64,000 nucleotides of DNA from assembly GCF_024436055.1 (NCBI RefSeq), contig NZ_JANFNH010000018.1:1-64000 (forward strand). The letters run 5' to 3'. The translations under genes and the position numbers were made by a program. The notes below the pieces were generated by a model. That model saw only the letters and a program-made list of their open reading frames with translations. It had not been told where the DNA came from and did not search any database. This DNA comes from Streptantibioticus rubrisoli (GTDB taxonomy: Bacteria; Actinomycetota; Actinomycetes; Streptomycetales; Streptomycetaceae). Position 1 is the first letter of the stretch. Every line of letters begins with the position of its first letter. Of the stretch, positions 58,572-63,813 are shown piece by piece.

Positions 58572-59021
58572 ATGACCGACACCGCGCGGGCGCGCAAGCT
58601 GGCGGACCGCATCCGGGTCGTGGTCGCCGAGACCCTGCAGCGCCGGATCAAGGATCCGCGGCTGGGCTACGTGACGATCACGGACACCCGGGTCACCGGT
58701 GACCTGCGGGAGGCGACCGTCTTCTACACGGTCTTCGGCGACGAGGAGGAGCGTGCCGCCTCCGCCGCGGCGCTGGAGAGCGCCAAGGGAGTGCTGCGCT
58801 CCGAGGTCGGCCGCCAGACCGGCGTACGGTTCACCCCCACCCTCACCTTCGTCCTCGACGCGGTCCCGGACACCGCCCGGACCATCGACGACCTGCTGGC
58901 CAAGGCGCGCGCCGCCGACGCCCAGGTCCGCGAGAGCGCCGCGGGCAAGGGCTACGCGGGCGAGGCGGACCCGTACCGCAAGCCCGCCGCGCACGACGAC
59001 GAGGAGTCGGACGAAGCGTGA
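58572..59021 (+). CDS. rbfA: Ribosome-binding factor A
   Basis: A 30S maturation factor of 149 aa with a KH-like fold. Motifs: [39 protein letters not shown], and [11 protein letters not shown]. The acidic C-terminal tail is typical of streptomycetes. AGAGAGAAG lies upstream of the ATG. The stop overlaps the truB start by 4 nt (GTGA). Confidence 0.95.
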
Positions 59022-59926
59022 GCCAGCGCAACAGGCCGATGGGCCCGGACGGACTGGTCATTGTCGACAAGCCCGCCGGGCTCACTTCGCACACTGTGGT
59101 CTCCCGGATCAGGAAGCTCGCCGGGACCCGCCGGGTCGGCCACGCCGGCACCCTCGACCCGATGGCCACCGGTGTCCTGGTGGTCGGCGTGGAGAAGGCC
59201 ACCCGGCTGCTCGGGCACCTGGCGCTGACCACCAAGACGTACCAGGCCACCATCCGGCTCGGGCAGTCCACGGTGACCGACGACGCCGAGGGCGAGGTCA
59301 CCGCCACCGCCGAGGCGTGCGGGGTGACCCGGGAGGCGCTGGAGGCGGGAGTCGCCAAGCTCACCGGTGACATCCTCCAGGTGCCGTCCAAGGTCAGCGC
59401 GATCAAGATCGACGGGAAGCGCTCGTACCGCAGGGTGCTCGACGGCGAGGACGTGGAGCTGACCGCTCGGCCGATCACCGTCTCGTCCTTCGATGTGCAC
59501 GCGGTACGCGAGGCGGTCGCCGAGGACGGCACCGCCCTGCTGGACGTGGACGTGACCGTCGACTGCTCCTCCGGCACCTACATCCGCGCCCTCGCCCGCG
59601 ACCTCGGCGCGGACCTGGGCACCGGCGGGCATCTGACCGCGCTGCGCCGCACCCGCGTCGGCCCCTACGGCATCGAACAGGCCCGGACACTGGAGGAGTT
59701 GGCGGACGACTTCGCCGTACTGCCGATCGGGCGGGCCGCGGCCGAGGCGTTCCCGCGCTGGGACGTCAGCGCCGAGCAGGCCAAGCGGTTGATCAACGGC
59801 GTACGGCAGAAGGCCCCCGGGCTCGGCGCCGGACCCATCGCGGTCTTCGGACCGGAGGACCGCTTCATCGCCCTGGTCGAGGAGCGGCGCGGCGAGACCA
59901 AGATCCTCGCGGGCTTCGCCTCCTGA
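59018..59926 (+). CDS. truB: tRNA pseudouridine55 synthase
   Basis: A 302-aa pseudouridine synthase making U55 in the T-loop of tRNAs. The catalytic Asp is in [16 protein letters not shown]. Other blocks are [29 protein letters not shown] and the C-terminal PUA-like part (GETKILAGF). The GTG overlaps rbfA. The stop codon lies inside a 19-bp tandem duplication at the left edge of a dispersed element. Confidence 0.96.
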
Positions 59927-60093: not shown

Positions 60094-60318
60094 GTGCGCC
60101 ACCGTGAGCGCGGGCCGGGGCGGTTGGCCGCCCGGGCCCGCACTCGACGATTCCCCTCCGATCTTCTCTTATCCGCCCCGAACTGCGGATTCACCCCAAC
60201 GGGCAGGCGCTCGGAGTGAATCCCGTGGTGTCCGGGGGCGCTTTCGCCGCGCGCCCTGTCCTGTCGATCACCACCCGCCTACCGTCAGACGGGGGAGAGC
60301 TCGGTGGGAGGTTCGTGG
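60094..60318 (+). promoter_or_regulatory. Upstream region of the large P-loop protein gene
   Basis: No gene is seen. The less GC-rich stretch at about 60150-60200 (ATCTTCTCTTATCC) is the likely promoter area. Two possible ribosome binding sites occur: GGGGGAG at 60291-60297, serving a GTG at 60304, and GGGAGG at 60306-60311, serving the ATG at 60319. Confidence 0.4.
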
Positions 60319-63300
60319 ATGGCGCTTGGGGTCCCACCCGGCGCGGGTCAGGGAAAGGCCGATCCGGACGAGTCGCTGGTGCGGCTGTGCGATCTGGCCG
60401 GTCGGCCGCGCGGCACCGGGTTTCTCATCGACACCAACGGCACGCTGCTGACCAGCCATGAGGCCGTGGACGGGCTGCGCCGCCTGGTACTGCACGTCCG
60501 CCCGTCGCCCTCCGCCACCCTGGGCGCCAGCGCTTCGCCGCACGGCGCACACGTCGGCGAGCAGACCTTCCTGGTCGAGGCCGAGGCGATCACCCCGCTG
60601 CCGGAGCAGGGGCTGGCGCTGGTCGCCACCGAGGGGCTTGTGGTGCCTCCGCTGCCGGTCGCCGAGAGCGGACCCGCCGACCCGGACGGCTGGGTGCGGC
60701 TGCATGCCGAGGGCTGGGTGCACGCGGCCGTGGTCGGCACCGTGTCGGCCACGTACACCGCCACCGACCGCTTCCATCTGCTGGGCGAGGTCTACGAGTT
60801 GGTCACCGGAACCCCGGAGGCGCTGCGCGGCGGGCCGCTGGTCTCCGGCAGCCCGCTGGTGGACACCAGGACCGGCGCGGTGCTCGGCGTGGTGGCCACC
60901 GCCGTACACGCCGCGCACGCCGCGACCGGCTTCGCCATCCCGCTGCGCGCCGAGGGCCCGCTGGCCGAACCGCTCGCCCGCAACGCGGCCACCGTGCCCG
61001 CCTACGGCGCCCATCTGAACCTGGCCGGGGCGCTGCAGCTCACCGCCACCTCGGTCGGCTCGGCGGGCGCCGGACGCCCCCGCGATCTGCGCGAGCCGGA
61101 GCACCGACCGGCGGTCGAGGCCGAGTTGCGCAAGTTCCTGGACGGCACCGGCGAACGCGGCCCGCTGGTGCTCGGCCTGGTCGGCGACCCCGGCTGCGGC
61201 CGCACCACGGAGCTGGGCGCGCTGGCCGCCCGCCGCGCCCGGGGCGCCCGCCCCGCGCCCACCGTATGGCTGCGCGGCGCCGAACTGCGGCCCGGCGACG
61301 GCGGGTTGAAGGAGGCGGTGGAACGGGCGCTGCGGGCCGCCGGGCGGATCATCGACGCCTCGGGCGGGGTCGGCGAGGCAGGGCAGGCGGAGGGCGTCAC
61401 ACCCGACGCGGTGGCGCATCTGGCCCGCGCCGCGGACCGTCCGCTGCTGGTGCTGCTGGACGCGCCCGAGGAGATGCCCCCGGTGCTGGCGCACGCCCTG
61501 CCCGACTGGACCGCGGGCACCGCGAGTTGGCTGCGGGCCGCCGGAGTCAGGCTGGTGGTGGCCTGCCGCCCGGAGTACTGGGAGCGGGCCGGTGCGCTGT
61601 TCCCGGCCGAGCTGCTGTACCGGCCCGAGGCCCCCGGTACCGCGCCGGGCGGCCCCGCGCGGGCACTTCCCGCCTGCCTACGGCTCGGCGACCTCACCCC
61701 GGAGCAGGCCGAACGGGCCCGTGAGCGCTACGGGATCCCGGACGGCGCGATCGACCCGGCGGATGCCGCGCATCCGCTGACGCTGCGGCTGCTGGCCGAG
61801 GTCCGCGCGGCCAACCCGGAGCTGGCCGGGTGCCCGGACCGGTACGCGGTCTTCTCCGCCTACCTGGACCTGGTGTGCCTGCGGATCGCGGTACGGCTCG
61901 CGGTGGCCGGTTCCGAGCAGCTCGCCGGTAGCGCGGTGCGGCGGCTGGCCGCCCGGGTCGCCGGGCAGGTGCACGAGGCGGCGCGGCAGTGCCTGGGGCC
62001 GGGCCAGGGGGAGTTGGACCGGGAGACGTTCGAGGAGGTTTTCCCGTGGCGCAGCGGCTGGGCGTCCGCGGTGCTCACCGAGGGGCTGTTGGTGCCCGCG
62101 GGCGCCGGATACCGGTTCGCGCACGAGGAGTTCGGCGACTGGCTGCAGGCCGGGCACCTCGATCTGGACGCCGCGCTGCACGCCCTGGTCCACCGCTGGC
62201 AGAGCGCGCCTCCCGACCACCAGGAGGCCCCGGTGCGGCTGCCGTCCCGCCCGGTGACGACGGTGCGCACCGGCACCCACGACGACCGGCTGCCACCGCC
62301 CCCGCCCGCCCCCTCCGTCGCCCCCACCCAGCCGCCGCACGCGCTGCCGGTGCCCCGGCACCGGATCGGCCCGGTGGTGCAGGCCCTGCTGCTGGCCGGG
62401 CGGCGGGACGGCACGGCCGAACTCGCCCACCGGCTCGACGACTTGATCGGCGCGCTGGACGCGGGCGCGGCGGAGCCCACCCGGCTGGTGACCGGCGGCC
62501 AGCCGCCGGACCGGACGCACGGCCGCGGCGCCGACGCGTCCGACGAGCGGCGCGCGGACGCCACCTGGTGGGCGGCGCACCTGCTCGGCGAGGTGCTGCT
62601 GCGCGTCCCCGACGCCGCGCCGTACCGCGATGTGCTGCGGCGGCTGGCGGAGCGGATCACCGTGCGCTCACTGCGGCACGGCGGGTTCGACTCGCCGCGA
62701 CTGCCCGCCGGGCTGGCCGAGTTCGGCCCCTGGTTCTGGCTGCGGCTGCCGCTGGACACCGCGGCCCGGCTGGATCTGCTGCGGCTACTGCTGCCCGCCG
62801 ACGGGCCGCCCCCGGCCAGAAGCCGCGGCACGGGCGGGGACCGGTTCCTGACCGCGGCCGGTGAACTGCTGTGCGCCGACGCGGACGTGGCGCTGCCGCT
62901 GATCTGCGGCTGGTTCGACGACGACCGGCCGCTGCCCGCCGCCCCGGGACCGGGCCGTACCCCGACGGTGGCGTCCGCCGCCCAGGCGCTGCTGCACACC
63001 CACCGGCACCGCGCCATCGACGCGCTGACCGAGGCGCTGGTCGCGGCCGCCCATCCGCGCGCCGACGAACTGCTCGCCTCGCTCGCCGAGGACGAGCCCT
63101 CCGCGCTGTGCCGCGCGGTGGACCGCTGGGCGCACGACGACCGCCCGGAACGCCATGTGGCCGCCGCGGCCTACGGATTGCGCGCCGCCACCCACGTCAC
63201 CTCCGAGGCGGACCGCCAACTGCTGCGCTACGCCGCCCTGGCCCTGCTCGGCCGCAGCGACACCTGCTCACTGCACGGCGCGGCGCTCGCGTTGCTGGTA

Positions 63301-63813
63301 CGGGACCCGGTGACCCGCAACCGCTATCTGGAGCGGGCGCTGGCCCGCTTCGCGGCGGCGGACCCGTACATTCCGGCGAGCGTGCTGGGCGCCGCGCTGG
63401 CCACCCATCCCGAGCCGGTACTGGCCGCCTTCCAGGCCCGGCTGCGCGAGCCGGGCCCACGTGCCGCCGAGGTACTGGCCGAGCTGGCCCGGGTCACCAC
63501 CCCGGCACTGGCCCGCCGCGCCGCGGCGCTCGTCCGCGCTTACGCGGAGCACTGCCCGGAGGGCGCCCGCGACGTGGCCGACTACCTCGAACTGCGCCTG
63601 GAACAAGGCCCCGGCGCCCGCGCCGTCCTCTTCCCACTGGCGGTCGGCCTGCTACGCGACCCCCGGGCCGAAGTACGCAGAGCACTCGCGCCCGTACTCA
63701 CCGCATCCGGCTCCGCGGTCTCGCGCCCCCTGCGACGGGAACTCCTCCAGGTCCTCCTGGAAGACGAACACGACGCGGCGGTGCTGGAAGCGGTCCGCCG
63801 CGGCACGGCCTGA
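60319..63813 (+). CDS. Trypsin-like pseudoprotease fused to P-loop domain
   Basis: A 1164-aa soluble protein. Residues 1 to about 215 fit a trypsin-like fold (GTGFLIDTNGTLLTSHEAVD, with the His at 47, and LRGGPLVSGSPLVD). The catalytic Asp position (QGLALVA) is Gly and the Ser position before GGP is Arg170. Residues about 275-640 resemble a STAND/AAA-type NTPase: Walker A GDPGCGRTT has Arg295 for Lys, Walker B is LLVLLDAPEE (Asp381), then a winged-helix-like RFAHEEFGDWLQ. After a Pro-rich linker (about 655-675) the C-terminal 480 residues look like helical HEAT/TPR-like repeats. Similar trypsin-NTPase fusions have been proposed as conflict or signalling proteins. The alternative start is a GTG at 60304. 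Confidence 0.8.
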   Translation: MALGVPPGAGQGKADPDESLVRLCDLAGRPRGTGFLIDTNGTLLTSHEAVDGLRRLVLHVRPSPSATLGASASPHGAHVGEQTFLVEAEAITPLPEQGLALVATEGLVVPPLPVAESGPADPDGWVRLHAEGWVHAAVVGTVSATYTATDRFHLLGEVYELVTGTPEALRGGPLVSGSPLVDTRTGAVLGVVATAVHAAHAATGFAIPLRAEGPLAEPLARNAATVPAYGAHLNLAGALQLTATSVGSAGAGRPRDLREPEHRPAVEAELRKFLDGTGERGPLVLGLVGDPGCGRTTELGALAARRARGARPAPTVWLRGAELRPGDGGLKEAVERALRAAGRIIDASGGVGEAGQAEGVTPDAVAHLARAADRPLLVLLDAPEEMPPVLAHALPDWTAGTASWLRAAGVRLVVACRPEYWERAGALFPAELLYRPEAPGTAPGGPARALPACLRLGDLTPEQAERARERYGIPDGAIDPADAAHPLTLRLLAEVRAANPELAGCPDRYAVFSAYLDLVCLRIAVRLAVAGSEQLAGSAVRRLAARVAGQVHEAARQCLGPGQGELDRETFEEVFPWRSGWASAVLTEGLLVPAGAGYRFAHEEFGDWLQAGHLDLDAALHALVHRWQSAPPDHQEAPVRLPSRPVTTVRTGTHDDRLPPPPPAPSVAPTQPPHALPVPRHRIGPVVQALLLAGRRDGTAELAHRLDDLIGALDAGAAEPTRLVTGGQPPDRTHGRGADASDERRADATWWAAHLLGEVLLRVPDAAPYRDVLRRLAERITVRSLRHGGFDSPRLPAGLAEFGPWFWLRLPLDTAARLDLLRLLLPADGPPPARSRGTGGDRFLTAAGELLCADADVALPLICGWFDDDRPLPAAPGPGRTPTVASAAQALLHTHRHRAIDALTEALVAAAHPRADELLASLAEDEPSALCRAVDRWAHDDRPERHVAAAAYGLRAATHVTSEADRQLLRYAALALLGRSDTCSLHGAALALLVRDPVTRNRYLERALARFAAADPYIPASVLGAALATHPEPVLAAFQARLREPGPRAAEVLAELARVTTPALARRAAALVRAYAEHCPEGARDVADYLELRLEQGPGARAVLFPLAVGLLRDPRAEVRRALAPVLTASGSAVSRPLRRELLQVLLEDEHDAAVLEAVRRGTA

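Follow-up and report, generated by a model that had tools for sequence, protein, structure and literature searches.

A predicted NLR-like protein with a putative pseudoprotease domain and an arginine P-loop, encoded between truB and ribF in Streptomycetaceae

What could a protein do in which a protease-like domain and a P-loop NTPase are fused and the signature residues of both are altered? This question is raised by a long open reading frame (ORF) near the end of a 64,000-nucleotide stretch of Streptantibioticus rubrisoli (contig NZ_JANFNH010000018.1, positions 1 to 64,000; the window hereafter), which runs from 60304 or 60319 to 63813 on the + strand and is called gene X here. The ORF list and the translation give an uninterrupted frame of 1,164 amino acids (aa) from an ATG at 60319 or 1,169 aa from a GTG at 60304, and both candidate starts are preceded by a purine-rich stretch. 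An AlphaFold2 model built from a 61-row alignment (predicted local distance difference test, pLDDT, 88; predicted template modeling score, pTM, 0.82) divides the predicted chain into an HtrA/trypsin fold, a NACHT-type STAND NTPase, and a HEAT/ARM-like solenoid, a modelled layout that resembles that of an animal NLR immune sensor. The protein is a new variant within the known NLR-like STAND architecture, and what makes it unusual is that three features come together in it: a fixed core locus, an apparently non-catalytic protease domain, and a P-loop whose Arg is invariant. We propose, as an evenly balanced judgement, that the product of gene X acts in Streptomycetaceae as an NLR-like switch that works without proteolysis.

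Loci that were compared with gene X are labelled L001 and so on. A scan of genome contigs yielded 69 distinct gene X loci, and the orthologue counts rest on the 63 of them that were aligned; two copies split over frames (L042 and L072) and four partial ones (L043, L065, L066, and L069) were excluded, L001 to L003, found in a different search, also lie outside this set, and L028 was kept despite its 957 aa. Alignments A1 to A4 held 61, 47, 60, and 53 rows, the window row counted; L028, L029, and L032 were omitted from all four and some further rows from A2 to A4. The orthologue of Streptantibioticus ferralitis (L005) is 90% identical to the window gene. Another 24 divergent loci are counted separately.

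The trypsin fold that a sequence-only reading of the window had placed at the N-terminus was borne out. Residues 32 to 191 match Pfam Trypsin_2 with 28.1 bits against a cut-off of 27.6, and 59 of the 60 N-terminal domains in the alignment are also hit by this profile at E ≤ 0.1. When model residues 13 to 221 were compared with known structures by VIA-align, HtrA structures overall gave Z values of 16 to 17, with MamO (5hma; Z 17.3, root mean square deviation [rmsd] 3.0, 177 residues aligned) at the top and the others within 1, Rv3671c (3k6y; Z 17.0, rmsd 3.1, 175 aligned) among them. A profile of the gene X family finds HhoA, an HtrA protease, at E 4.4e-8, and the full protein has one NCBIfam match, HhoA_HhoB_HtrA, at 20.7 bits against a cut-off of 450.

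The same reading had kept the catalytic His (in HEAVD) and had seen Arg170 in place of the nucleophilic Ser, and both positions had to be moved. The profile string TsheavdG (TSHEAVDG in the window) pairs without a gap with TNAHVVDG of HhoA, so that the catalytic-His column is occupied by Glu48, with His47 one position ahead of it; on this register, repeated in the six HtrA-like proteins of the same genome that align there (4.5 to 20.5 bits), His47 was rejected as the catalytic His. Nineteen Trypsin_2 loci besides gene X had been tried in that genome, 13 of which gave no usable row. On the nucleophile side, the profile string geasGgPvlda pairs with NPGNSGGPLLNA in the HhoA match, and the HtrA motif GNSGGPL set against LVSGSPL of the window places Ser176 in the nucleophile column, as do four paralogues of the same genome aligned over this stretch. 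The HhoA alignment and these paralogues rule out Arg170, which is mostly conserved (Table 1); Ser is not the norm at that position, and at the true nucleophile column it occurs in 24 of the 63 orthologues. The Gly reported in place of the catalytic Asp was correct (Gly98). With Glu48, Gly98, and Ser176 in the triad columns and Leu174 as the equivalent of Gly193, the window protein, as judged by register, lacks the His-Asp-Ser triad plus Gly193 of HtrA peptidases.

This loss appears to be shared. His is found in the catalytic-His column of none of the 63 orthologues and none of the 24 divergent loci (Glu in 21 and Gln in 3 of the latter). The Asp and Ser columns vary among the orthologues (Table 1); in the divergent loci the former holds Gly in 20, Asp in 3, and Asn in 1, and the latter is Ser in 3. 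Four orthologues (L018, L033, L060, and L064) have both Asp and Ser, and no row among the 63 combines these two with Gly193. A switch to a cysteine peptidase, with Cys in the nucleophile column of 8 of the 63, was dropped, given that no row has His in the His column. Gly177 and Pro179, beside the nucleophile column, are each present in 63 of 63, and the His47-Glu48 pair is conserved at the former active site. The N-terminal domain is probably a pseudoprotease throughout the gene X family.

For model residues 237 to 824, VIA-align gave NLRP3 (7vtp; Z 19.9, rmsd 4.4, 404 aligned), NLRC4 (4kxf; Z 19.4, rmsd 6.7), and NOD2 (5irn; Z 19.2, rmsd 4.9) as tied matches over about 400 to 440 residues, that is, a NACHT fold. 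The P-loop reads GDPGCGRTT, exactly as had been noted from the letters, and departs from the Walker A consensus G-x4-G-K-[ST] by an Arg for the Lys in every gene X row examined; Arg295 (codon CGC, 61201 to 61203) is found in 63 of 63 orthologues and 24 of 24 divergent loci, and nowhere in the family is Lys the norm. Walker B with its acidic pair, D381-x-x-E384-E385, is likewise present in all rows of both sets, Gly289 in 62 of the 63 orthologues, Pro486 in 63, Arg417 in 60, and His602 in 53; Pro486 and His602 we take to be the adenine-stacking Pro and the winged-helix His of NLRs. The Arg need not mean that nucleotide binding is lost, since Walker B is invariant and the P-loop is otherwise almost fully conserved. 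The suggested role without catalysis thus stands for proteolysis across the family and does not extend to nucleotide binding; the sequence-only reading was right about the P-loop Arg and, it seems, about the missing protease activity, by way of partly wrong residues.

Among the matches listed, loci of related genomes carry Lys in 29 of 30 cases for NACHT (the motif was not found in one) and in 30 of 30 for NB-ARC, both control sets having been picked by profiles that favor Lys. Within the NACHT set, L135 had two motif matches, of which the second was read, L144 was read away from the expected place, and L153 yielded no motif. Weak paralogues of gene X were retrieved from 7 of 13 places; six of the seven (L102 to L105, L107, and L108) matched the gene X profile (E 1e-6 to 2e-5, small set), each with Arg in a motif HG.PGSGR[TS]; L106 did not match. 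An Arg P-loop is therefore not confined to gene X, at least one further STAND group in these bacteria having it, although the gene X profile favors Arg relatives because it contains Arg itself.

The C-terminal part, modelled alone, resembles HEAT/ARM solenoids (Table 1). Its best chains are PP2A related, namely 7xvk_A (Z 13.8, rmsd 6.9, 326 aligned) and 8twe_A of a PP2A complex (Z 13.7, rmsd 6.7, 327 aligned), and Foldseek returned a CAND1 complex at 4.8e-4. Since such Z values lie near the level that helical repeats can reach through their arrangement only, HEAT/ARM-like is used here as a description and makes no family claim; the C-terminal 485 residues have no Pfam match. The window copy and five orthologues (L004, L005, L007, L009, and L028) stop within 4 residues of one alignment column, and the other 58 extend 50 to 326 residues further as a C-terminal tail.

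If gene X encodes a switch, the protein would be cytosolic, and its NACHT module would still bind nucleotide with Arg295 replacing Lys, as suggested by the retention of Walker B, the P-loop glycines, the Thr/Ser, and most of the positions that contact ADP in NLRs. Hydrolysis would be slow or absent because of the Arg. A ligand may be sensed by the solenoid, the likely input, or by the pseudoprotease, and the ensuing change of state would expose or cluster the pseudoprotease, whose output would be protein binding, by docking or allosterically, without cleavage. Immune switching is the role for which NACHT proteins of the NLR type are best known. A more specific version, in which this core-locus protein is a physiological or developmental switch and not an immune effector, with an Arg P-loop NACHT and a pseudoprotease giving a docking or allosteric output, is offered tentatively. 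Were gene X a switch, it would offer a natural way to find out how pseudoproteases signal and whether Lys-dependent hydrolysis is needed for a NACHT module to switch.

Several observations weigh against a working switch. The catalytic-His column was assigned by register and not by model geometry. An Arg for the P-loop Lys usually harms nucleotide handling. His602 is replaced by Asp in 10 of the 63 orthologues, and the 24 divergent loci keep the sensor-1-like Arg417 in 11 and His602 in 15 (Arg417 of one split copy, L110, having been read from its first piece); this variation is as compatible with decay of the site as with its function. Pfam NACHT matches 9 of 47 members (E ≤ 0.1, best 2.7e-4) and not the window member, whose NTPase part has no convincing Pfam match; NCBIfam gave scattered weak ATPase matches for the NTPase part. 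Finally, the ratio of nonsynonymous to synonymous substitution rates (dN/dS) of the pseudoprotease reaches 0.35 against L006 and 0.57 against L007.

Table 1. Features of gene X and its upstream neighbor in the window
Feature	Coordinates	Strand	Evidence
Gene X, NLR-like protein of putative pseudoprotease, NACHT, and solenoid parts	60304..63813	+	ORF list; purine-rich stretches; long open frames in orthologues
HtrA/trypsin-fold putative pseudoprotease domain, residues 13-221	60355..60981	+	Trypsin_2, 28.1 bits; model against MamO 5hma and Rv3671c 3k6y
His47-Glu48 pair; Glu48 in the catalytic-His column	60457..60462	+	His47 in 62/63, Glu48 in 61/63; ungapped register; codons checked
Gly98, catalytic-Asp position	60610..60612	+	Column in 63 orthologues: Gly 32, Asp 18, Ala 9, Asn 4
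Arg170, six residues ahead of the nucleophile column	60826..60828	+	Arg in 52/63 orthologues
Ser176, nucleophile column	60844..60846	+	Column in 63 orthologues: Ser 24, Ala 16, Cys 8, Val 6, Thr 5, Arg 3, Pro 1
NACHT-type STAND NTPase and following helical domains, residues about 235-824	61021..62790	+	VIA-align to NLRP3, NLRC4, NOD2
P-loop GDPGCGRTT, residues 289-297, Arg295 for Lys	61183..61209	+	Arg in 63/63 and in 24/24 divergent loci
Walker B region LLVLLDAPEE, residues 376-385	61444..61473	+	D381, E384, E385 in 63/63 and in 24/24 divergent loci
Pro-rich linker of low confidence, residues 636-674	62224..62340	+	pLDDT under 50
HEAT/ARM-like helical solenoid, about residues 809-1164	62743..63810	+	Separate model, pLDDT 92; 8twe_A match; no Pfam match
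truB, constant upstream neighbor	59018..59926	+	Gene X between truB and ribF in 69/69 loci with both

The locus itself bears on the function. Gene X had been said to stand alone after truB, which is true within the window because the window ends before ribF; the next gene on the same strand is ribF, whose match begins about 15 bases beyond the window end (read at L001). In a set of 77 loci, 69 have both flanks, and in every one of these gene X is placed between truB and ribF, with all three genes on one strand; of the remaining loci, four have ribF only, three truB only, and one neither, and some of the 77 are probably one genome counted twice. Over 61 genomes, the distances of gene X correlate with those of truB (0.69) and ribF (0.79), neither value being reached in 2,000 permutations, and truB with ribF at 0.83; the mean distances (gene X, 0.44; truB, 0.24; ribF, 0.17) mark gene X as evolving faster than its neighbors. 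The constant place and the distances that track both flanks point to a vertically inherited gene that has been gained or lost cleanly. In three Actinacidiphila loci (L024, L030, and L047), about 4.8 to 5.0 kb separate the gene X match from ribF; the insert of L024 (11900-16800) holds PEP-synthase-like and dual-specificity-phosphatase-like ORFs, assigned by eye and not by profile.

Ten further ORFs around gene X, taken from the window on the upstream side and from L004 on the downstream side, were scanned against Pfam. Five matched at E ≤ 1e-4, namely a class II tRNA synthetase, NusA, and IF-2 ahead of gene X and, behind ribF in L004 (12760-18015, - strand), a ParA-like gene and an EccE-like gene (type VII secretion). 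The other five had no match at that threshold, none of the ten matched MoxR or vWA, and no defence gene was seen adjoining gene X in this neighborhood. The rimP paper, in its available text, places only nusA, infB, rbfA, and truB near SCO5703 (PMC3716926).

These data bear on the idea that gene X is a defence (conflict) STAND protein, since fixed at one place, with its pseudoprotease as a decoy or dominant-negative effector. Such a role was proposed for inactive peptidases in the available text of Kaur et al. 2020 (PMC7159879), and LypA, as described in part in PMC13236601, pairs a trypsin-like domain with a divergent ATPase without Walker residues. We nevertheless regard a defence role as unlikely, given the fixed locus and vertical inheritance, scanned neighbors that are translation, ParA-like, and EccE genes, and a solenoid that is not hypervariable (dN/dS of about 0.19 in the closest pairs). 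PADLOC gave OloA at E 0.08 as the best match of the full protein and, for the NTPase part, weak matches with mad8 the best (1.5e-4, in 9 of 47 members), both too weak to name gene X. The regulated conflict system suggested earlier accordingly finds no support in the context. RIPK3 (E 0.012 to 0.018), NUG1 (E 2.2), and a sub-cut-off Pfam match to Erythro-docking were taken as chance.

A role in translation or flavin metabolism, for instance as a scaffold for ribosome assembly or a stress checkpoint, is suggested by the constant same-strand neighbors truB and ribF and by nusA and infB upstream within the window, but we think it improbable. Among 19 genomes without a strong gene X match in which truB was located (17 Streptomycetaceae and 2 of other families), ribF lies directly behind truB in 16, with gaps of 97 to 357 bases. 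As 15 of the 17 Streptomycetaceae are among these 16, neither truB nor ribF needs gene X. The exceptions are L180, with a gap of 924 bases, L179, where the contig stops behind truB, and L185 of another family, with no ribF within 1,500 bases of truB. Moreover, the 377 bp ahead of the GTG start leave space for separate transcription, and HEAT-like solenoids are known to bind many things. A promoter and terminator scan upstream of gene X, made with the sigma-70 consensus only, which is weak for Streptomyces, found nothing.

Gene X loci come from Streptomyces, Streptantibioticus, Actinacidiphila, and Streptacidiphilus, with Microtetraspora glauca as the one exception. The NTPase profile matches 64 of 81 sampled Streptomycetaceae genomes at E ≤ 1e-3, three of them (G003, G050, and G053) weakly; the strong matches (E ≤ 1e-20) fall in 61 of the 81 and in 9 of 17 genera, and a laboratory Streptomyces carrier for a deletion test is therefore probably findable. 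Beyond the family sample, matches were obtained in 10 of 148 genomes of a class-wide draw (E ≤ 1e-6) and in 13 of 41 genomes in a search of relatives, all of them Streptomycetaceae. The genome searches scored 13 to 24 first-look candidates per genome, and absence of gene X holds at that sensitivity. We call the protein undescribed solely because our literature searches found no paper naming it; its locus tag, which we take to be SCO5710, was not confirmed in that literature.

Selection was estimated by the Nei-Gojobori method for pairs among the window gene and L004 to L007. The dN/dS values for the whole gene, pseudoprotease, NACHT, and helical rest were 0.196, 0.148, 0.197, and 0.193 between the window and L004; 0.159, 0.142, 0.126, and 0.191 between the window and L005; and 0.154, 0.106, 0.123, and 0.189 between L004 and L005. 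At longer range the whole gene gave 0.27 (L006) and 0.39 (L007). In the same five pairs, truB gave 0.21, 0.23, 0.18, 0.24, and 0.35 and ribF 0.07, 0.09, 0.07, 0.09, and 0.13. Gene X is under purifying selection, with a constraint close to that on truB and weaker than that on ribF, and with the pseudoprotease looser than both against L007; truB likewise climbs at long range. Synonymous saturation was dropped as the cause of the higher long-range values because dS there is 0.37 to 0.72.

The earlier statement that the gene is intact and maintained agrees with its uninterrupted frame and with whole-gene values of 0.15 to 0.20 among the window, L004, and L005. It is accordingly very improbable that gene X is decaying and that its altered motifs are relics: these closest-pair values resemble those of truB, and Arg295 and Walker B are invariant in both locus sets. 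Such decay could explain the absence of gene X from several sampled genera, the lack of the tail in the window copy and five orthologues, and the divergent copies of L109 and L111, which run over several reading frames beside a whole ribF; at the third such copy, L110, ribF is split as well, and assembly errors are therefore likely there. Least credible is an N-terminal domain still active as a protease in this species, since the Ser176 with His47 nearby, the Ser of 24 orthologues, and the four loci with Asp and Ser meet a catalytic-His column with Glu in the window and no His in any of the 63 orthologues, a Gly (Gly98) in place of the Asp, and Leu174 at a Gly193 equivalent that is Gly in only 8 of 63.

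The non-proteolytic, NLR-like switch that we favor can be set against several known systems. MamO, an HtrA-like pseudoprotease that magnetotactic bacteria retain for a non-catalytic function according to the available text of PMC4794232, shares with gene X the HtrA fold, the apparent loss of catalysis, and a non-Gly residue at position 193; in MamO the His and Asp are still present and Thr replaces the Ser, whereas gene X is without the His, mostly without the Asp, and joined in one chain with a NACHT module, and the likeness carries no sign of metal binding by gene X. The inactive STAND (iSTAND) proteins of MoxR-vWA ternary systems, as described in parts of PMC7159879, resemble gene X in that a trypsin-like domain can stand ahead of a STAND NTPase, theirs being an NTPase that is catalytically inactive; these systems are reported there to be almost entirely absent in actinobacteria, and their MoxR and vWA partners were not found in the flanks and ten ORFs beside gene X. 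LypA of the CARD-NLR systems, in the portion available of PMC13236601, likewise has a trypsin-like and then a divergent ATPase domain in a single chain; it has a CARD-like N-terminus, a required catalytic Ser262, and the partners LypB and LypC, whereas gene X appears to have no triad, and no NLR or nuclease partner genes were found among its immediate neighbors. The NTPases nearest to the gene X profile outside gene X are the NB-ARC/TPR-type relatives described above, which share the Arg P-loop and differ, in the two that were scanned, by NB-ARC and TPR Pfam matches and the lack of a trypsin domain. With NLRP3, NLRC4, NOD2, and the bacterial bNACHT proteins, which are NACHT proteins of phage defence in the available text of PMC12169576, gene X shares the NACHT fold (residues 237 to 824) and the Walker B acidic pair, and like other NLR-type NACHT proteins it carries an additional domain at the N-terminus and a repeat solenoid at the C-terminus; it differs from them by its Arg P-loop, its N-terminal HtrA fold of a probable pseudoprotease, its HEAT/ARM-like repeats, and its fixed core locus.

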